From the NCBI RefSeq assembly GCF_000255455.1, contig NZ_JH621257.1:1-64000 (forward strand): DNA of 64,000 bases. The letters are read 5' to 3'. Positions within the stretch are counted from its first letter, which is position 1; the number at the start of each line of letters is the position of its first letter. Below, one piece after another: positions 3,248-47,753 of the stretch. The DNA comes from Aquimarina agarilytica ZC1. GTDB lineage: Bacteria > Bacteroidota > Bacteroidia > Flavobacteriales > Flavobacteriaceae. The notes under the pieces were generated by a model. That model had not been told where the DNA came from, searched no databases, and saw nothing but the letters and a program-made list of their open reading frames with translations. Made by a program: the position numbers and the translations under genes.

Positions 3248-3385
3248 AGTTTAAAAATGATGATATGTAAATTTAACAAGAATAGTGTAATAGAAAATCT
3301 ATTTCGTTATGAAGTTCTCTAAATATAATTTTAAGAAATCATACCGCAATACAAAATTTAAATATGTCTTATAAAGAAATTGATA

Positions 3386-5636: not shown

Positions 5637-5925
5637 TTATTTTAATATTTGACACATCCATAATAGTCCAAATCACTCGTGTTATAAACTATTAGAAATA
5701 CTATTGTTTTTAATTAGACATATACCAATTAAGCATTAAAACGACATAAAAATAAGTGCTATTTTCCTAATTAATACATTACAAAATGTTTCCGTAGCTT
5801 GAGCTATGCAAAAATTTAGCGTCTTGTACCTAGAAAAATATCCTATTATTTTAAAATATCTTTTTTAAACTTAATTGATATTATTTTTCATATCCCTTAA
5901 CGGGAGAAGAAAAACAAATTCTTAA

Positions 5926-6081
5926 ACCAGATTATGCAGAGTAACTTTGTTATGAGTATTGAAAGCTCAATAAAATCAAGTGCTTTCTTAATTTTAGCAT
6001 AGCACTACTATGCTTAATTAAAAAAATACAGTGAATACCGAGATTCCGATACGGAATAGATTTTCTATTGTATGCTCTGGT
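5926..6081. repeat. Palindromic intergenic element, copy A
   Basis: The 463-base gap 5637-6099 has no gene. Most of its right half is this element: ends ACCAGA...TCTGGT, an arm AACTTTGTTATGAG, and a centre GTGCTTTCTTAATTTTAGC followed by a second hairpin. In reverse complement the centre matches copies at 10719-10888 and 12238-12403 (for example GTGCTATGCT-A-AAATTAAGAAA). It begins 18 bases after the stop codon of the HYC_CC_PP gene. The left half of the gap (5637-5925) is AT-rich with nothing recognisable. Confidence 0.6.
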
Positions 6082-6099
6082 GCTGATTGAAACAATAAA

Positions 6100-6522
6100 T
6101 CAAATACGAAATACTTGAAAAAGCACACTCCTATCCCGAAGCAGTAAGGGAGGTGAATAATTTAAAAAGGGAACATTAGTTTGGGTTGCTACATACTCAA
6201 AATTGTCATTAACAAAGTGAAATTGAGTATGTAACAGTGACTTTGTTACATCAAAATCAACAGGATCCTTTTTTTGAAGCAGCTCGTTCTGAGCTTTTTT
6301 TTCGATATGTTTATTACTACAGCATGACTTTTTTGAAACGCTAGTGATCTTTTTAATAGCCTTTGAAGCTATTGTAGATGAACAGGTTTTAACGCTATCT
6401 GTAAAACTGTAAGCAATTAATTGTTCGCCACAAAAATGCGTACTAAAACTTAGCGAGCTTGTCGCCAATACCACCAGCAAGGCTAGTAATAGAGCACTTA
6501 TTTTTTGAAAAACTTTTTTCAT
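6100..6522 (-). CDS. HYC_CC_PP family protein (putative metal-binding)
   Basis: 140 residues with a signal peptide or membrane anchor (MKKVFQKISALLLALLVVLA). Three landmarks of the HYC_CC_PP family appear in order: HFCG (about residue 30, in place of HYC), SCCSNKH (about 68) and YSPPLLLRD near the C-terminus. Family members are small Bacteroidota envelope proteins often found beside heavy-metal transport genes; their histidine and cysteines could bind metal. An in-frame GTG sits one codon earlier (6525); I chose the ATG. It is upstream of the barrel/HMA/NHL genes on the same strand, though separated from them by a 463-base gap with a palindromic element. Confidence 0.75.
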   Translation of the reverse strand: MKKVFQKISALLLALLVVLATSSLSFSTHFCGEQLIAYSFTDSVKTCSSTIASKAIKKITSVSKKSCCSNKHIEKKAQNELLQKKDPVDFDVTKSLLHTQFHFVNDNFEYVATQTNVPFLNYSPPLLLRDRSVLFQVFRI

Positions 6523-6705
6523 CACATTACAAAAATACGAAAAACAAAATTCCCAGATAGCTTATTTTCCATCGTATAAGATTCTTTTTCCTGTAGGTTA
6601 TATAAATAACGACAAAAATCAGTCCACATTACATTTTTATAAAATTGACAAATACAATTTCTGGTTTTTTAGTTGGTTTGTTTAAATTTGCTCCACATTG
6701 CGTAA

Positions 6706-6791
6706 GGGGTTGCAGCGGCATCCTTTTTTATTTTTTGCCTTTATTTATTGTATTCATTGGCAAAAAATAAAAAAGATATAGCGGAAGACCC
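6706..6791. repeat. Long inverted repeat upstream of serS
   Basis: The gap 6523-6826 contains CTTTTTTATTTTTTGCC (6723-6739), perfectly inverted as GGCAAAAAATAAAAAAG (6759-6775). The stem is flanked by GGGGTTGCAGCGGC on the left and TAGCGGAAGACCC on the right, which partly extend the symmetry. It is followed by CGACCCGATAGGGG. The arms form a 17-bp stem with a 19-base loop, and the second half has a T-run in one direction and an A-run in the other. It may terminate transcription between the flanking genes or be a dispersed genome repeat. No promoter for serS is obvious. Confidence 0.55.
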
Positions 6792-6826
6792 GACCCGATA
6801 GGGGTACGCCCAAATAACAAAACAGC

Positions 6827-8098
6827 ATGTTACAAGTAGCATTAATTAAAGATAATTTTGAAGCCTACATTAAAGCACTTCAAAAACGAAATATAGACGC
6901 CAAACCTTTACTTGAAAAAGTACTATTATTAGATGAAAACCGAAGAGGTACGCAAGCTAGTATGGACGAAAAATTGGCTGAATCCAATAAATTATCCAAA
7001 GAAATTGGCATGCTATTTAAAAGTGGTGAACAACAAAAAGCCAACATTTTAAAGGAAAAAACGGGACAATTAAAAGAAGCTACCAAATCACTAGCTGAGC
7101 AACTAAATAACATCCAAGAGGAATTAAATAGTTTATTATATACTATTCCGAATATTCCTGATGAATTGGTTCCTGCCGGTAATACTGATGAAGATAACGA
7201 AGAGGTGTTTGCCGAAGGTGAGGTTCCTAAATTACATGATGCTGCCTTACCGCACTGGGAATTAGCAAAAAAATATGACCTTATTGATTTTGAATTGGGG
7301 GTTAAAATTAGTGGCGCTGGATTCCCTGTTTACAAAGGAAAAGGAGCGCGACTACAACGTGCTTTAATTAACTACTTTTTGGATAAAAATACAGCCGCTG
7401 GCTATAAAGAAGTACAAGTACCTCACTTGGTGAACGAAGCCAGTGGGTATGGTACTGGGCAATTACCCGATAAGGAAGGGCAAATGTATCATGTTACTGG
7501 AGATGACCTTTACTTGATCCCAACTGCCGAGGTTCCTATTACAAACATGTTCCGCGATGAATTAGTTAAAGAAGCTGATTTACCAATTACCTATACAGGT
7601 TACACGCCTTGTTTCCGTAGAGAGGCTGGATCCTATGGTGCCCATGTACGTGGTTTAAACCGTTTACACCAATTTGACAAAGTGGAAATTGTTCGTGTTG
7701 AAAAACCTGAAAATTCATACGCTGCTTTGGACGGCATGGTGGAGCATATTAAAGATATTTTACGGGAACTTAAATTACCTTACCGTCTATTACGCTTGTG
7801 TGGTGGCGATTTAGGTTTTACTGCTGCTATTACTTATGATTTTGAATTATTTTCGACTGCTCAGGATCGTTGGTTAGAAATTAGCTCTGCATCAAACTTT
7901 GAAACCTTTCAAGCAAATCGTTTAAAATTACGTTTTAAAGATACCGATGGTAAAAATAAATTGGCTCATACTCTTAATGGAAGCTCATTGGCTTTACCTA
8001 GAGTTTTGGCCGGTATTTTAGAAAACTACCAAACCGAAGATGGCATTAAAATACCTGAGGTTTTAGTTCCTTATTGTGGTTTTGATATGATTAATTAA
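6827..8098 (+). CDS. serS: Seryl-tRNA synthetase
   Basis: 423 residues, normal length. It charges tRNA-Ser (and tRNA-Sec where present) with serine using ATP in the cytoplasm. Residues 1-110 form the tRNA-binding coiled-coil arm (charged heptads such as KLAESNKLSKEIGMLFK). The class II core follows, with motif 2 FRREAGSYG and the linked LNRLHQFDKVE. Motif 3 is LNGSSLALPRVLAGILEN. The start ATG gives the usual MLQVALIKDNFE beginning. An inverted repeat precedes it and a TPR gene follows 53 bases later. Confidence 0.97.
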   Translation: MLQVALIKDNFEAYIKALQKRNIDAKPLLEKVLLLDENRRGTQASMDEKLAESNKLSKEIGMLFKSGEQQKANILKEKTGQLKEATKSLAEQLNNIQEELNSLLYTIPNIPDELVPAGNTDEDNEEVFAEGEVPKLHDAALPHWELAKKYDLIDFELGVKISGAGFPVYKGKGARLQRALINYFLDKNTAAGYKEVQVPHLVNEASGYGTGQLPDKEGQMYHVTGDDLYLIPTAEVPITNMFRDELVKEADLPITYTGYTPCFRREAGSYGAHVRGLNRLHQFDKVEIVRVEKPENSYAALDGMVEHIKDILRELKLPYRLLRLCGGDLGFTAAITYDFELFSTAQDRWLEISSASNFETFQANRLKLRFKDTDGKNKLAHTLNGSSLALPRVLAGILENYQTEDGIKIPEVLVPYCGFDMIN

Positions 8099-8151
8099 CG
8101 ATTGATTTCATATTCGCATAAAAAACGTACGCATTTTGCTATCTTAGCTTT

Positions 8152-9939
8152 ATGCGTATTTTTTTTGCTTTTATTTTCTTTTTTGGGATACACTTGGGTT
8201 ATACTCAAAATATTCAAATTGCTCGTAATTATTACGAGCAAAGTAAGTTTGAAAAAGCTTTGGCTAGTTATGAAACTATCTACAGCAGAACACCATCAAA
8301 CTCACAAGCTGTCATTGGTTTAGCTAAGTGTTACCGCCAATTAAATCGTTCCAATGATGCAATAAGTCTTTTGAACAAAAACCATCAAAATAATCCCAAA
8401 CAATTAATTTATTTAGTGGAACTAGCAGTGACTCATAACCTAAATAGTCAAGCTGAAAAAACTGAAGCAACCTTTAATAAAATAATTACATTACTGCAAG
8501 ACAATCCTAGAAGTGGTAGCTACATTGGCAATGCTTTACAACAATACAATTTGCTAAAACCTGCTATTGCATGCTATAAAATAGCTATGGAACAAAATGC
8601 AAATTTTGTATATGATTTGGAAATTGGACGTATGTATGGGGAACTAGGCGATTTTGGAAATATGTTTTCGAGTTACTTAGATTACATTATAAAAAAGCCA
8701 AACTATATCGGTCTTATTAAACGTAGAATGGACGAGTTCATTTCTGAAGATCCGGAAAACGAGACCAATATCATTTTCAAGAAAACACTTCTTAAAAAAA
8801 ATCAAATAGAACCTGATATATTGTATAACGAACTATTGAGCTGGTTATTTGTACAGCAAAAGCAGTTTAGAAAAGCTTTTTTACAAGAAAAGGCGATCTA
8901 CAAAAAAACAGACGATGGCATACCTCAACTTATTAATTTAGCCTTTACTACTCGAAAGGCTAAAGCTTATGAAATTTCCAAAGAGATCCTAAATTTTGTT
9001 ATTGACAATACCGAAATTGAATCTTTCAAAGTAAATGCGCATAGGGAATTAATGCAAATTAGAACTGAAACTAGTTCGCCGATCAATTATGCTGGCATTA
9101 ACAAAAAATACTTGGATTTAATTGAGCTTTATGGAAATGGCCGATACAACATGGGGATTCTCCTTGATTATGCACGCTTTGTAGGCTTTAAACAAGATAA
9201 AAAAACAGAAGCTATTAGTTTTTTAAAAAAGCTACTAAAAAGAAATCTACCTAATATTCAAAAGGCCAAAACCGAAATTTTATTGGCGGATATTTTAGTA
9301 CTAAATGATAAATTCAACCAAGCTTTGGTACATTACACCAAGGCCGAAAAAAGAGTTAAAGGCGATCCTCTTGCGCAAGAAGCACGTTTTAAAATAGCTA
9401 AAGCAAGCTACTACAAAGGGGATTTTGATTGGGCCAAAACCCAACTTAACGTATTAAAATCGTCCACCACCCAACTTATTGCTAATGATGCCATGCAACT
9501 GGCTTTAGCTATTGAGGACAATACCAAAGAGGATGATTCCTTATCTATTGTTGCTTTAAAATTATATGCTAAAGGGGAATTATATACTTTTCAAGAACAA
9601 ACCCAAAAGGCTATTGACAGCTACCAACAAATTATAGATAAGCACAAAGGCAACGAAATTGAAGATGAAGCACTTTTTAAACAAGCAAACTTGTTTTTAA
9701 GCCTAAATGACACCGAAAAAGCTGCTGCTAATTTCGAAAAAATCATTCAATTCTTTCCAACTAGCCTACTAATCGATGACACCTATTTTATTTTAGCCAA
9801 CCTTTATGTTTCCTTAGAGAAAACCGCAGAAGCCAAAAACTTGTATGAAAAAATTATTTTTAATCATGCCGATAGTATTTATTACGTAGATGCTAGAAAA
9901 AAATACCGTAAATTAAGGGGTGATGATATTGTAAATTAA
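8152..9939 (+). CDS. TPR-repeat periplasmic or outer-membrane protein
   Basis: 595 residues. A signal peptide (MRIFFAFIFFFGIHLGYTQ) is followed by many tetratricopeptide-like helical pairs along the whole length, for example YEQSKFEKALASYETIY near residue 30 and FKQANLFLSLNDTEKAAANFEKII near the C-terminus. TPR proteins form scaffolds for protein binding; no catalytic domain is visible. A weak -7-like box (TATCTTAG) lies just upstream. A longer overlapping frame starting at 8102 lacks family features and is a shadow. The partner is unknown. Confidence 0.8.
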   Translation: MRIFFAFIFFFGIHLGYTQNIQIARNYYEQSKFEKALASYETIYSRTPSNSQAVIGLAKCYRQLNRSNDAISLLNKNHQNNPKQLIYLVELAVTHNLNSQAEKTEATFNKIITLLQDNPRSGSYIGNALQQYNLLKPAIACYKIAMEQNANFVYDLEIGRMYGELGDFGNMFSSYLDYIIKKPNYIGLIKRRMDEFISEDPENETNIIFKKTLLKKNQIEPDILYNELLSWLFVQQKQFRKAFLQEKAIYKKTDDGIPQLINLAFTTRKAKAYEISKEILNFVIDNTEIESFKVNAHRELMQIRTETSSPINYAGINKKYLDLIELYGNGRYNMGILLDYARFVGFKQDKKTEAISFLKKLLKRNLPNIQKAKTEILLADILVLNDKFNQALVHYTKAEKRVKGDPLAQEARFKIAKASYYKGDFDWAKTQLNVLKSSTTQLIANDAMQLALAIEDNTKEDDSLSIVALKLYAKGELYTFQEQTQKAIDSYQQIIDKHKGNEIEDEALFKQANLFLSLNDTEKAAANFEKIIQFFPTSLLIDDTYFILANLYVSLEKTAEAKNLYEKIIFNHADSIYYVDARKKYRKLRGDDIVN

Positions 9940-10005
9940 CCTTTATGTTCATTATTATTTTTTAATAATTGATTTATTATTGCTGGTTTTAACAAAAGTA
10001 ACTCC

Positions 10006-10707
10006 ATGAAAAAAATATACACTACAGCTGTTTTATTGGTGGTATTTTTTTCAATGCTCAACTGTAACAAAAAGCAACCTATTCCTAAAAAAAAGACCCC
10101 ACAAAGTGAACGCAAACCAACTCCTATAAACACTGCTCCTATAAAGGGTTTAACATTATTGACTGAAGCTACGGGAGATTTAACTAATGATGGAATTCCC
10201 GAAAAAATTAATGTGTATGATACTCAAAAGGAAACTGATTTTGGTACGGAAAGACTGATCCATATTTTAAAAAAAAATGACACTAAATGGGTCTTATGGA
10301 AAAAATCAATTGGTCCCATATTACCAAGTGCTCATGGAGGAATGCAGGGAGATCCATTTGAAGGTATTTCAATAGAACGAAATTGTATTGTAATTCATCA
10401 TTCTGGCGGGAGTCACCAAAAATGGAGTTATACCCATAGGTACCGTTATCAAAATAATGAATGGCAATTGATTGGTGCTACCACGCATTTTGGGGCTGCT
10501 TGTGATTATTTTGAAACTTATGATTATAATTTATCAACAGGCAACATTAATTACAGGAAAGAAATTGAAAATTGTGAAACAGCACATACTAAAATTGAAG
10601 AGCAACAATTCTATAAAAAATTAAAATCACTCCCCTTAATGGATGGGTTTTACCCTGGAAATAATGAATTAAAACTCCCTAATACTGACCTGCTTATTTT
10701 TTACTAA
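10006..10707 (+). CDS. Hypothetical lipoprotein
   Basis: 233 residues. MKKIYTTAVLLVVFFSMLNCNK is a lipoprotein signal with lipobox LNC. A lysine/proline-rich linker (about 24-45) precedes a globular domain that begins GDLTNDGIPEKINVYDT, a calcium-loop-like D-x-N-x-DG pattern seen in FG-GAP/VCBS-type repeats. The rest is beta-rich (HSGGSHQKWSYTHRYRYQ). I do not recognise a named family. It follows the TPR gene by 66 bases and precedes a palindromic repeat; the next gene is convergent. Confidence 0.6.
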   Translation: MKKIYTTAVLLVVFFSMLNCNKKQPIPKKKTPQSERKPTPINTAPIKGLTLLTEATGDLTNDGIPEKINVYDTQKETDFGTERLIHILKKNDTKWVLWKKSIGPILPSAHGGMQGDPFEGISIERNCIVIHHSGGSHQKWSYTHRYRYQNNEWQLIGATTHFGAACDYFETYDYNLSTGNINYRKEIENCETAHTKIEEQQFYKKLKSLPLMDGFYPGNNELKLPNTDLLIFY

Positions 10708-10718
10708 TGAAGTCCTTT

Positions 10719-10888
10719 AACCCAAATTATGCATTAAAAAATCTATTACGTCTGCGATCTACTTCAAATACTATCGTAAACTGTATTTTTTAATTTAACC
10801 ATAACGGTGCTATGCTGAAATTAAGAAAACACTAGTATTTATTGTATATCTCAGCCTCATGACAAAGTTTCAATGCATAATTCGGGTT
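10719..10888. repeat. Palindromic intergenic element, copy B
   Basis: A 170-base element. Its outer arm AACCCAAATTATGCATT (from 10719) pairs with the end AATGCATAATTCGGGTT, which finishes at the stop codon of the BamA-like gene (10888-10890). The centre holds CTGTATTTTTTAATTTAACCAT and GAAATTAAGAAAACACTAGTAT. Both stretches occur almost unchanged in copy C (12238-12403). It fills the whole space between two convergent genes and may serve as a bidirectional terminator or RNA stabiliser. Confidence 0.75.
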
Positions 10889-12153
10889 TAAAAATATTGT
10901 CCTATTCCAAAAACAAAACCATTAGTTGCATCTTTGGAAACGCCATAACCATAATCAATTCTGAACGTCGCATTAAATATTTTTTTATGAATAAATCGAA
11001 GCCCTAGCCCTGGGTATATCCTAAAATTATCTGGATCGGAAAAATCACTAAAGTCTCCTTTAGGGTTACGCCAACTACCTGCATCAATAAAGGCATTACT
11101 TTGTAAAATAAACCAATCTTTTTCATACAACGTATGTCGGTACTCTGTATTTAATACGATAACTCCGGTTCCCCTATCAATAGTATTCCCTACTCCTCGT
11201 ACATTAATATTGTTATCAACCGCAAAGGGAGCAAACGGCGAATCATCATTTGTTGCTAAGCCCATACGTAACCTGGAGGCCCAATTCCCCTTTCTATTCA
11301 CTCTACGGTAATAAAAAAAGTCATTCCACCCAATAATAAAACTAGGCAGCACACCTTCGGTACTTTTTACATATTGGAAATTTAATAAACTTTTAAAACC
11401 CGATACATATTGAAAATTATAAGTTAAGTTATTGTATTCATAAATAAATTTATATAGTAACTTATCTACGTTAAAATCTGTAGGCACATTGGAATCTGTT
11501 GCGCCATTTAGGTACAAATAATCTTCGTTAAAATAGTTCGCTCCTACCTCGACACGATTAAAAAAATTAAATTGATACAAGCCTAATAATTCATATGAGG
11601 TATTATTGTATTTATATTCCGCTGTTCCGTTATTTAAAAAAACAGGTTCCTGAGTAGTCAAATTACTGTAATTAAAAGATAGTCCTAGCTTAGTACTAAA
11701 TAAAAATGGAGCTCTAAAACTAGCTCCGAAAGAATCAAAAACATCACGTTGGTACCATCCTCCTGTAGTAATATTTTTACCTAATAAATTAAACTCAAAC
11801 AAACTTACTCTAAAAGCAAATTCATCTTCATCGGTAGTATACACATTAGCTCCAGGTATTAGTGTAAAATTTTCAACAATAGTAAAAAATATATTGTACC
11901 CTCCTTCATGTTTTTCTATTTTGTATTGCGCATCAGCTATTGCGGGCAAGCGTATTAAACGTTTCTTATCTTGTGCTACCTCTGCTTCATTAAACTCACT
12001 ACCTACATTAGTATGAATCACTTTTAACAAAGCTGATGTCTTTGTTTTTTTGTTACCAATAAAGTCTATTCCTGTTACTACACTTGTCTGTCCTTGCAGC
12101 AAAAAGCAAAACAACAAAAAACAACATATCGATAACCGCTCTCTCATACACAT
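10888..12153 (-). CDS. BamA/TamA-like outer-membrane protein (POTRA plus barrel)
   Basis: The reading frame is open from a GTG at 12195, but residues before the ATG at 12153 (or the second ATG at 12147, MRERLSICCFLLFCFLLQGQ) do not fit a signal peptide, so I start it at 12153 (about 421 residues). After the signal, one POTRA-like domain (about 20-100: VTGIDFIGNKKTKTSALLKV) precedes a 16-strand-type barrel of the Omp85 surface-antigen family, with repeated aromatic strands and a C-terminal FGIGQYF. This short one-POTRA form may secrete or insert a few client proteins rather than act as the essential BamA. It ends exactly at the palindromic element B and is followed upstream by copy C. Confidence 0.75.
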   Translation of the reverse strand: MCMRERLSICCFLLFCFLLQGQTSVVTGIDFIGNKKTKTSALLKVIHTNVGSEFNEAEVAQDKKRLIRLPAIADAQYKIEKHEGGYNIFFTIVENFTLIPGANVYTTDEDEFAFRVSLFEFNLLGKNITTGGWYQRDVFDSFGASFRAPFLFSTKLGLSFNYSNLTTQEPVFLNNGTAEYKYNNTSYELLGLYQFNFFNRVEVGANYFNEDYLYLNGATDSNVPTDFNVDKLLYKFIYEYNNLTYNFQYVSGFKSLLNFQYVKSTEGVLPSFIIGWNDFFYYRRVNRKGNWASRLRMGLATNDDSPFAPFAVDNNINVRGVGNTIDRGTGVIVLNTEYRHTLYEKDWFILQSNAFIDAGSWRNPKGDFSDFSDPDNFRIYPGLGLRFIHKKIFNATFRIDYGYGVSKDATNGFVFGIGQYF

Positions 12154-12210
12154 ATACTCGTTTTTATTTGCAATAGTAAACAAAAACAATTTCACACTAA
12201 ATAACTAAAA

Positions 12211-12411
12211 GCCATTTCAACAACTACAAAGTATATAAACCCAAATTATACATTAAAAAATCTATTCCGTCTGTAATATACAATGAATACTAACGTTAAC
12301 TGTATTTTTTAATTTAACCATGGCGGTGCTAAAATTAAGAAAACACTAGTATCCATTTGTATATTACAGACTCATAACGAAGCTCTAACGCATAATCCGG
12401 GTTGAAATGGC
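12211..12411. repeat. Palindromic intergenic element, copy C
   Basis: The outermost arms GCCATTTCAAC (12211-12221) and GTTGAAATGGC (12401-12411) are perfectly inverted. Inside, AACCCAAATTATACATTA (from 12238) pairs with TAACGCATAATCCGGGTT (to 12403), and GTCTGTAATATACAA pairs with TTGTATATTACAGAC. The centre matches copy B. Differences between the two arms are mostly A/G or C/T transitions, which would form G-U pairs in RNA read from the minus strand. It lies 32 bases after the stop codon of the barrel gene. Confidence 0.75.
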
Positions 12412-12442
12412 TTTACTTTTACTAAACTTAAAATCTATTTTT

Positions 12443-13402
12443 TTAAAATAAGGCTCTTAATCCCAAACTAAATGTTTGACCTAATCCTTGAAAACTTTCA
12501 CCACGTACAAATTTACCGTACGATGCCTCTAAATTAACAACTCTGGTTACTTGGTATTTGGCACCAAAACCTAGCTGCGTCCCATTTTGTGAAAAATTTT
12601 CTCCTCCAGCAGATTGAGGGTTATCAATCCCTATTAAAAAGGCTTGTTGAGCATTTATAAATACTGTTGATTTTGACGATGGAAAATAACTTAAAAAAGC
12701 ACTAATAGGCAGAAACAAACTATCTCCTGCAAATCTTTCTGATGAATTTTTATCATTTGCTACATTTTCTCTGTTATCTCCAAAATTAAATTTAAAATCT
12801 ATCTCGGTAAATAACTGCCACTTATTAGCTCCAAAAGTTCGGTCATAAAAAAACTTTGTATCCCAAGCAAAACTACGTTGATCTAAAAACGAATCAACTC
12901 CATCATCAGCAGCGGCATCTGCCTTATCTTCAAAAACAGGAATAAAAAATGAACTTGTAAATGAAAAATTTCCAATATTTTTAAAAGGCTGCACTCTTAT
13001 TGATGGCGCAATAGTTGACAAACCAGATCTTCTATCATTTCTATTATCCTCAAAACTGAATACATCTAGTGGTGATTGCCCATTAAGGGCATTTGATCGT
13101 ACCTGAAAAATAAAACCTACGTTTATTCTAGATGTATTACTTATACCTGTAAAAATTTCAGTGGTATTTGTAAAAAAAGTTTGCCTTGTAATATCTACTT
13201 TTTCAGAACCTGCATCAGTTTGCTCAGTTTGGGTGTAAATACTGTTAAAAAACTTAATATCCCATTGTCCTTTCTTTAATAACTTTGATGGAGTAAAAGT
13301 TTGTATGTTGGAACCTGATTGTTCCTCTTCTTCTTGCGCTGTTACTGCCGCAGACATAAAGGCAATACTTACCACTGCCAGCATTTTTTGTGTTAGCTTC
13401 AT
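12443..13402 (-). CDS. Outer-membrane beta-barrel protein
   Basis: 319 residues with a signal peptide (MKLTQKMLAVVSIAFMSAAVTAQ), an acidic/serine-rich stretch (EEEEQSGSN), then many amphipathic strands ending in FSLGLRALF. The conserved start TFTPSKLLKKGQWDIKFFNS is seen in uncharacterised Bacteroidota barrel proteins. Function is unknown; a porin-like or structural role is possible. It is bracketed by palindromic elements (copy C downstream, hairpin D upstream) and shares its strand with the DUF547 gene 91 bases upstream and the BamA-like gene downstream. Confidence 0.65.
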   Translation of the reverse strand: MKLTQKMLAVVSIAFMSAAVTAQEEEEQSGSNIQTFTPSKLLKKGQWDIKFFNSIYTQTEQTDAGSEKVDITRQTFFTNTTEIFTGISNTSRINVGFIFQVRSNALNGQSPLDVFSFEDNRNDRRSGLSTIAPSIRVQPFKNIGNFSFTSSFFIPVFEDKADAAADDGVDSFLDQRSFAWDTKFFYDRTFGANKWQLFTEIDFKFNFGDNRENVANDKNSSERFAGDSLFLPISAFLSYFPSSKSTVFINAQQAFLIGIDNPQSAGGENFSQNGTQLGFGAKYQVTRVVNLEASYGKFVRGESFQGLGQTFSLGLRALF

Positions 13403-13438
13403 AATCTAGTTTTATTTATAATATTTTGGGGTTTAATT

Positions 13439-13490
13439 CGAATTAGGCATTAAAAATCTATTCCGTATCGAAGTTTTAATGCCTATTTCG
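13439..13490. repeat. Short palindromic element, copy D (arms only)
   Basis: CGAATTAGGCATTAAAA (13439-13455) is inverted with one mismatch as TTTTAATGCCTATTTCG (13474-13490), around a loop ATCTATTCCGTATCGAAG. The loop sequence recurs in copies A and C (AATCTATTCCG). It begins 3 bases after the DUF547 stop codon. It looks like the same element without its centre. Confidence 0.65.
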
Positions 13491-13493
13491 AGC

Positions 13494-14201
13494 TTAAGCT
13501 TTATTCAAAGACCAATCGTAGGTATAAAATGAAAGTTTAGATCCTTCTGGTAATTTTGTTGTTCTGTATGTATTGATAAACTTAAATACACCACCTGCCG
13601 ATTTAAAATCCTTGTCATACCACTCAAAAATTTGAGAGATCTTCGTTTTTTTACCATCAACTCTAATAAAATTAGGGTCATTTAACGCTAATTTAGTTTG
13701 CGTTGTCAACTGAGTATCTAAGGTGCTTGGCTTGTACGCTTTTGCTATTATTGGAGGACAACCTAAACCTGCGCAAACTAATACAAAATGAAAGCGCGCT
13801 TCATTAGGAAAAGCTTTAAACAATATGCCTTTTTCTATTCCATTAAGACTTACTTTTTTTCCCGCAATAGTGTAATTTAAATTATCGAAAAAACCGCCTA
13901 TATTTGTTGGGGATTTTGTAGGATACTTATCAACGATTCCTTTTATAACCGATAAATTATAAGCGTTTATGTAAAATGCCTGAAAGTCTTTCGTATTCGA
14001 CTTTGACACTTTGGCTACCGCCATCATATCAATAAGTTCATTTAATGATGAGCTATCTGCTTTTATTTTGTCATAATGTACACGTCCGTTGGACACATAG
14101 GTTTTAAAAAATGCATCTGCCTTTTCAAAAAATGAAGTATTTCCTTGTGCTATCCCTAATTGAGCAATAAATAACGTGATTAATATAAGTATCTTTTTCA
14201 T
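13494..14201 (-). CDS. DUF547-domain secreted protein
   Basis: 235 residues, signal peptide MKKILILITLFIAQLGIAQ. The DUF547 landmarks are present: AFYINAYNLSVIKGIVDKYP (about 80-100), then RFHFVLVCAGLGCPPI (about 136-151), the conserved cysteine loop, then IFEWYDKDF. DUF547 is related to papain-like folds, but its activity in bacteria is not established. The gene is first of a three-gene minus-strand run (DUF547, barrel, BamA-like), each followed by a palindromic element. Confidence 0.85.
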   Translation of the reverse strand: MKKILILITLFIAQLGIAQGNTSFFEKADAFFKTYVSNGRVHYDKIKADSSSLNELIDMMAVAKVSKSNTKDFQAFYINAYNLSVIKGIVDKYPTKSPTNIGGFFDNLNYTIAGKKVSLNGIEKGILFKAFPNEARFHFVLVCAGLGCPPIIAKAYKPSTLDTQLTTQTKLALNDPNFIRVDGKKTKISQIFEWYDKDFKSAGGVFKFINTYRTTKLPEGSKLSFYTYDWSLNKA

Positions 14202-27827: not shown

Positions 27828-27849
27828 TTTTTTTAGTAACATCACTTAC

Positions 27850-27892
27850 AAAACGACAAACCCCAATGAATATCATCGGGGTTTGTCGTTTT
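27850..27892. terminator. Strong bidirectional terminator
   Basis: AAAACGACAAACCCC (27850-27864) is perfectly inverted as GGGGTTTGTCGTTTT (27878-27892), a 15-bp stem between the convergent stop codons of the TerB-like gene and the hybrid kinase. Confidence 0.93.
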
Positions 27893-27918
27893 GTATTCTA
27901 ATTATTAATTTAATAAAC

Positions 27919-34417: not shown

Positions 34418-34448
34418 TCCATTACCCATTTCCTTAAACTCATTATAC

Positions 34449-34527
34449 AACCTGTATTATGCAGTGAAACCTTTGACTTTACAGAGATTTTGATTCGTAA
34501 TAGATTTTCTAAGTCATAGCACAGGTT
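34449..34527. repeat. Palindromic element, copy E
   Basis: AACCTGTATTATGC (from 34449) and its inverted partner ending CATAGCACAGGTT (to 34527) flank a core with GATTCGTAATAGATTTTCTAAG. In reverse complement the core reads CTTAGAAAATCTATTACG, close to the cores of copies A-D. It lies 31 bases after the olsF stop codon. Differences between the arms are again transitions. Confidence 0.55.
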
Positions 34528-34682
34528 TAACCTAAGCTTTTCTTTTATTCTAATTTAAACTCCTCATCTATACATAAAATATTATTTCTCATTACTTTAA
34601 CGCTAATAATCAGAAAAAATATAATTTTTCTTGTTAAGTTTAACATATCATAGCGACAGTATACCTATTAATAATTACAAAA

Positions 34683-47714: not shown

Positions 47715-47753
47715 AAAAATTAATTTTGGAGGTTCGCGACCTCGGTTATAATT
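47715..47753 (-). promoter_or_regulatory. Short structured leader of rpsP
   Basis: Between the predicted transcription start and the ATG, the minus-strand RNA holds a GAGGU-CGCGA-ACCUC hairpin (47729-47743), about 14 bases upstream of the start codon. It is GC-rich against an AT-rich background. It could be a binding site for S16 itself or for another protein that sets rpsP-rimM expression. Confidence 0.4.

Follow-up and report, generated by a model that had tools for sequence, protein, structure and literature searches.

A palindromic MITE family of Aquimarina agarilytica that inserts at TTWAA, probably through IS1380-family transposases, and carries a covarying inner fold

The window analysed here, i.e., the whole stretch of 64,000 nucleotides (nt) at positions 1 to 64,000 of contig NZ_JH621257.1 from Aquimarina agarilytica ZC1, contains several copies of a short palindromic element lying at or close to the stop codons of open reading frames (ORFs). 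The original prediction, made from the letters alone, described copies with a shared core at 5926-6081, 10719-10888 and 12211-12411 and an arms-only form at 13439-13490. These four stretches, here called A, B, C and D, are confirmed to be homologous members of one repeat family by a search of the window with covariance model R1 (filters off), which also found a fifth, deleted copy (E) and one doubtful remnant. The R1 matches span 5920-6086 (A, 89 bits), 10716-10892 (B, 179 bits), 12235-12407 (C, 139 bits), 13432-13498 (D, 46 bits) and 34445-34530 (E, 34 bits), the scores of B and C being flattered because both are in or very near the sequences (alignment A1) from which R1 was built. The features are as follows.

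10716..10720, no strand: left target duplication of copy B, TTTAA, equal in sequence to the right one
10721..10886, minus strand (the folded strand): copy B, full-length body CCC...GGG of 166 bp (R1 179 bits), assigned to the young subfamily by sequence identity
10887..10891, no strand: right target duplication of copy B, TTTAA, which includes the stop codon (10888-10890) of the minus-strand ORF 10888-12195
12240..12401, minus strand: copy C, older full-length body (R1 139 bits), with decayed flanking 5-mers ATAAA and TTGAA
5927..6080, plus strand: copy A, older element in the opposite orientation (R1 89 bits), with left 5-mer TTAAA and a decayed right end
13437..13492, minus strand: copy D, internally deleted form (R1 46 bits) in which the outer stem and the two sides of the first inner loop remain
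34451..34525, plus strand: copy E, 75-bp internally deleted form with right 5-mer TTTAA, found by R1 and nhmmer
3272..3334, minus strand: possible remnant of a deleted form, weak (R1 15.6 bits, E 0.17), retaining AGAAAATCTATT and GAAGTTCT

The flanks of copy D read TTTAA and CTTAA, the latter bearing the stop codon of ORF 13494-14201, so that in both B and D a stop codon lies inside the flanking 5-mer. Across the window the distance from copy to stop codon ranges from 0 to about 41 nt.

The element is about 167 bp long, without coding capacity and multicopy, and both of its ends are terminal inverted repeats, CCCGnnTTATGCATTAG. In alignment, the copies have the order TTWAA-CCCGnnTTATGCATTAGAAAATCTATTACG-variable arm-TTTMACCRTAGCGRTGCTATGCTRAAA-variable arm-CTCATAACGAAGTTCTAATGCATAAnnCGGG-TTWAA, and of the 179 with readable ends 152 measure 165-168 bp from CCC to GGG. 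The search of the whole genome (a 4.25-Mb draft) that the original prediction had called for recovers the family from copy C alone, with blastn returning 42 rows at E up to 0.001, a few of which are echoes of the palindrome on the opposite strand. A profile places the element at 47 distinct positions in the loci fetched from this genome, and in 35 of these the match extends over at least 165 of the 178 model positions; the covariance model likewise gives 47 matches, possibly including opposite-strand echoes. When up to two mismatches are permitted, the genome contains the end pattern AACCCGAATTATGCATT 75 times and its reversed form not once, which excludes chance. It had been claimed that the copies differ in their outer arms while keeping self-complementarity, which describes the distant copies well but not the young subfamily, whose 15 copies in this genome are 91.5-100% identical (median 96%).

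The flanks show how the element inserts. Among 194 distinct full copies, 179 have both ends readable, and the flanking 5-mers of 123 of these 179 are identical; TTWAA stands on both sides in 114, and its middle letter is concordant in 112 of the 114. This concordance reflects duplication, since pairing between the flanks would have given opposite letters, and the middle letter stems from the target, because copies of the young subfamily carry either one. Thus, the element inserts at TTWAA and duplicates 5 bp. The same count bears on the idea that the family consists of REP/BIME-like elements that a RAYT (Y1) transposase would move in single-stranded form. That idea draws on the element being palindromic, intergenic and folded on one strand, and on a RAYT gene in the genome (locus L037; NCBIfam REP_Tyr_transpos, 82.6 bits). 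However, Y1 transposition is not known to make a target duplication, whereas one is visible here, and the RAYT locus bears a different palindrome and no copy of the element, all of which leaves this explanation highly improbable. The candidate link was dropped after the element profile found no match at any Y1 gene locus of the genome. The RAYT gene itself (L037, 1243-1809) carries the motif HVN, where HxH is usual, with its own short palindrome nearby, and at four further loci (L033-L036) an IS200-like transposase is matched in its C-terminal part alone, with near-identical scores.

Related genomes supply sites with and without the element. At a first locus, aligned over seven genomes of which G067 is too divergent for reading, G002 and G029 are empty with a single TTAAA and G019 is empty with TTAAC, whereas G001 is occupied, as are G004 (by a short remnant) and G026 (by a copy from another subfamily). 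G002 is 99% identical to G001 yet empty and G004 is 97% identical yet occupied, a pattern that requires either that G002 lost its copy precisely or that the element inserted twice independently. At a second locus, G001 and G029 hold a full copy and G026 a remnant, and the empty sites of G002, G004 and G019 read TCTAA where the element has TTTAA. The short forms were also considered as a separate mobile class, which is unsupported: at the one site traced, the element is complete in G002 (L084) and deleted in G004 and G001 (L164 and L165). The family therefore consists of miniature inverted-repeat transposable elements (MITEs). Of the three functions offered by the original prediction, the non-autonomous mobile element is the one borne out, by the target duplications, the empty sites, the young subfamily and the existence of IS1380 elements with the same ends and target.

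These IS1380 elements are why a transposase of that family appears to move the element. Nine of the 52 genomes of the genus have a PF13701 match, and insertion sequences (ISs) of 1393-1394 bp with the same ends as the element were found at L380 (G059), L323 (G064) and L321 (G014). NCBIfam transpos_IS1380 (cut-off 180) gives 250 bits for the transposase at L321 and 226 bits for that at L379, which is the same place as L323; the transposase at L380 scores 89 bits to Pfam DDE_Tnp_1. The IS in G059 is flanked by TTTAA on both sides, and that in G064 by TTAAA on both sides if a small insertion at its right end is read past. In addition, six places with IS1380 matches were read in three further assemblies that hold the element, and a single end with at least 18 of 21 letters lies near three of the six, i.e., L410 in Aureispira, L411 in Saprospiraceae and L419 in Cyclobacteriaceae; the control, with shuffled letters of 30 other loci, gave 0 matches of at least 17 letters in 193,880 positions. 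The IS1380 model, run on 18 further or repeated genomes, matched in seven, above the cut-off in two. In the source genome, no inverted pair of ends at IS distance, i.e., no autonomous version with the same ends, was found among the listed end matches by eye or in the fetched loci by script, and no transposase was recognised by eye on the nine readable ones among 24 of its small contigs.

Two observations were made at these loci in passing. At about 1502-1650 of L323, a small element with ends CAATGTCGTTAAGTTAAG lies within the right end of the IS1380 element, with what looks like a 10-bp duplication. At 1188-2627 of L382 (G021), ends near-identical to CAATGTCGTTAAGTTAAG flank a DDE transposase frame of 435 aa, perhaps a second pair of MITE and IS.

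The inside of the element, about 140 nt that were not detected in the IS1380 loci, was analysed on a non-redundant set of 68 out of 215 sequences (at most 85% identical). Alignment A1 contains 53 sequences, namely 52 of these 68 and one copy of the young subfamily, and alignment A2 contains 40 of the 53; the 16 sequences left out of A1 were removed by judgement as degenerate or bearing inserts, a choice that favours structure. The structure has 60 pairs, 45 of which are changed on both sides across the 53 sequences, and 90.9% of its cells are paired, a percentage flattered by deriving the structure from the 68 sequences that hold most of the 53. Double-changed cells number 458, whereas shuffles give 142 ± 13 and slid structures no more than 98, showing that the inner fold is held by compensatory changes. 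A structure-free ranking by mutual information over the 68 sequences recovers the same helices, its top 16 column pairs falling on four helix-making antidiagonals or on the target duplication. Further copies and compensating stem changes, whose absence the original prediction had given as grounds for abandoning it, are both present.

The mismatches separate the two strands. On the folded strand, i.e., the strand with GAACTTCGTTATGAG near its 5′ end, the inner helices of all 68 sequences are Watson-Crick in 82.3% of cells, with 238 G.T pairs in 3070 cells and 73 A.C pairs, compared with 30 and 34 in the outer 13 bp (p 6e-6 for inner against outer, to be taken as a guide only because cells are not independent). 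G.T exceeds A.C in 57 of the 60 sequences whose inner counts differ. With this asymmetry inside and none outside, the outer ends have the character of sites recognised as double strands, and the inside that of a single strand that folds. Conserved unpaired stretches lie opposite each other in the inner loops, where facing mismatches are kept: T.T at columns 27/152 in 67 of 68 sequences, G.G at 29/150 in 61 of 68 and A.A at 32/147 in 60 of 67. Taken together, the inner fold looks to have been selected as a single strand, of either RNA or DNA.

Palindromes are corrected towards perfection during replication, and the covariation might thus be a by-product of template-switch repair rather than of selection, the deletion derivatives also pointing to an unstable hairpin. 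However, the facing T.T, G.G and A.A mismatches have been kept and not corrected, the G.T/A.C asymmetry is found inside and not in the outer ends, and the length of the element is nearly constant, so we regard this origin of the covariation as improbable.

The reading in which the element is a MITE (about 167 bp) that IS1380-family transposases move in trans, with TTWAA as target and with an inner fold selected as a single strand, accommodates these results and is held with high confidence. Several observations weigh against it. First, the IS evidence is uneven. The IS with an open transposase frame (438 aa; L321 in G014) has discordant flanks, TTAAA and TTTAA, as does L320 (GTTAA and TTAAA), whereas the transposase genes of the concordantly flanked ISs in G059 and G064 are not one open frame. 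Most other PF13701 loci in the genus are without such ends, and among the loci of the Cyclobacteriaceae assembly no end is seen at L415 or L421, and at L409 the match is limited to 17 letters. The source genome and G021, both rich in copies, gave no IS1380 match, but 15 of the 40 contigs fetched from the source genome consist wholly of N, and a match there may have been missed. Second, composition alone predicts more G.T than A.C (356 and 197 expected inside, 46 and 46 outside), so part of the inner excess is composition; relative to expectation, A.C (0.37) is depleted more than G.T (0.67) inside, and not so outside. The asymmetry is also not clear in the apical helix P5 (16 to 14) or the mini-hairpin (11 to 5). 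Third, an even draw of 395 genomes of the phylum, with eight candidates scored per genome, contained only four with the fold, the source genome included, and the family is therefore wide but patchy.

Within the genus, the covariance model matches (E up to 1e-5) in 35 of the 52 genomes. An exact-motif scan of GTDB gave at least 113 stretches, and among the matches listed all are titled Bacteroidota, many of them Aquimarina and the others Flavobacteriales, Saprospirales, Marinilabiliales and Cytophagales; the profile finds at least 95 full and at least 36 partial copies on the listed stretches. Searches for the element in viral contigs, plasmids and phages gave no match at the settings used. In copies from another family of the phylum (L423, L424, L427, L429, L431, L433 and L435, in G198 and G281), the apical hairpin is kept. 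Both sides of the first inner loop differ in these same copies, as if co-evolving.

Placement relative to genes was read for 168 copies from many genomes, copies lacking a flanking ORF on one side being left out of the context count. None of the 168 lies inside an ORF of at least 90 aa, even though 77% of the TTWAA sites in those loci are genic, the ORFs being called mechanically such that a gene-breaking insertion could look intergenic. The gaps holding a copy are tandem in 103 cases, convergent in 38 and divergent in 27, with both orientations present, a placement that lends no support to the proposal that the elements are unusual terminators. The original prediction also had each copy beginning 0-35 bases behind a stop codon, which describes the window reasonably well and weakens over the larger set: a stop codon and the duplication overlap in 19 of the 168, compared with 6.4% of non-genic TTWAA sites (p 0.024); 52 of 179 neighbours ending towards a copy do so within 35 nt, and 28 of 157 neighbours starting towards one likewise start within 35 nt. 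The association is at least partly target choice, because TTWAA contains TAA on either strand, and an insertion there at a stop codon could leave the protein intact.

Orientation is biased. Of the 103 tandem cases, 65 have the folded strand in the sense of the neighbouring genes (p 0.01), as is also true for 45 of 67 genes whose start lies within 100 nt. The folded strand is the G-rich one in 90 of 145 cases; transcription and replication as causes, both biased about 2:1, are inseparable. The sense bias, together with the one-strand fold and the absence of copies from ORFs, is what would be expected if these were RNA elements of 3′ or 5′ untranslated regions, recruited by the host for stabilising or processing mRNA, with mobility only as their means of spreading. 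However, about a third of the copies are oppositely oriented, orthologous sites among close relatives are variously empty, deleted or occupied, 17 of the 52 genus genomes have no match, and the sense bias comes entangled with the leading-strand bias of 90 to 55. Host recruitment is thus unlikely, and the one-strand fold and the 65 to 38 orientation bias may leave room for an RNA role, including that of the RNA stabilisers in the original prediction. Capture of a known host RNA was a further candidate and was rejected: Rfam 15 has no match over any copy at gathering score in the window, and in four further loci at E up to 10 it has none except a sub-threshold CRISPR-DR40 overlapping a copy end by 6 nt in L281.

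In the transposon reading that we prefer, an IS1380-family transposase would recognise the ends CCCGnnTTATGCATTAG and insert the element at TTWAA with a 5-bp duplication, and the inner ~140 nt would be selected because they fold as one single strand. In an RNA version, the fold would form when a neighbouring transcript runs through the element; in a DNA version, the template strand, exposed as a single strand during replication fork passage, would fold into a hairpin that brings the two ends close to each other. We consider the two versions about equally likely. A more specific and tentative proposal, to which we give slightly less than even chances, is that selection acts on a long-lived folded single strand as well as on the ends, that the hairpin of full copies, with its almost invariant length and its conserved non-canonical loops, works in cis as RNA or on the lagging strand and lets the element spread or be tolerated, and that this fold has travelled across Bacteroidota orders with IS1380-type ends. 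MITEs are usually viewed as passive leftovers whose inside is irrelevant, whereas the inside of this element varies little in length and retains its pairing across several orders, yet was not found in the ISs that share its ends. If the fold is needed in cis, the element would allow tests of how a transposon can depend on single-strand structure when no HUH enzyme takes part. The TTWAA target helps explain the placement of such hairpins on stop codons. A target rule and a likely partner enzyme are now available for this repeat family, whose hosts are AT-rich and mostly marine bacteria.

Compared with known systems, the element shares its ends, TTWAA target and 5-bp duplication with the IS1380-family ISs at L380 and L323, but has no gene and an inside of its own. 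A 5-bp repeat and 16/13 end repeats are given for IS1247 of that family (PMC3281130). Eukaryotic piggyBac is alike in its CCC-type ends and TTAA duplication, and in one study IS1380 serves as the piggyBac outgroup (PMC10813416); in contrast, the element has TTWAA with 5 bp, a bacterial host and no transposase inside. ERIC is likewise a short palindromic MITE with borrowed end repeats, predicted to fold in transcripts. Correia/CREE and Tn3-derived TIMEs are also short, with borrowed end repeats and predicted folding in transcripts, as described for CREE (PMC9330008) and TIMEs (PMC4133298). The ends and targets of these three differ from those of the element (CREE mostly TA, TIMEs Tn3 ends) and, unlike them, the element has a nearly constant length and a fold common to several Bacteroidota orders. 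Structured RNA families in Rfam have similarly conserved inner loops and covarying stems, whereas no copy in the window or in the four further loci matches such a family at its gathering cut-off. Searches of the open-access literature, with other journals outside their reach, found no description of this repeat family.

The window holds a few other features. A Flavo-1 RNA of Rfam lies at 6695-6799 (46.6 bits), upstream of an ORF that by eye resembles seryl-tRNA synthetase, and an S16-Flavobacteria leader at 47719-47752 scores 37 bits against a cut-off of 35.7. What appears to be a second palindromic repeat, AATACGATT(W)AC...ATTTCGTAT, is found near some copies, i.e., at 708-774 in the window and in the flanks of L006 and L113. 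Finally, a long terminator-like hairpin, TTACAAAACGACAAACCCC...GGGGTTTGTCGTTTTGTA, is located at 27846-27897.

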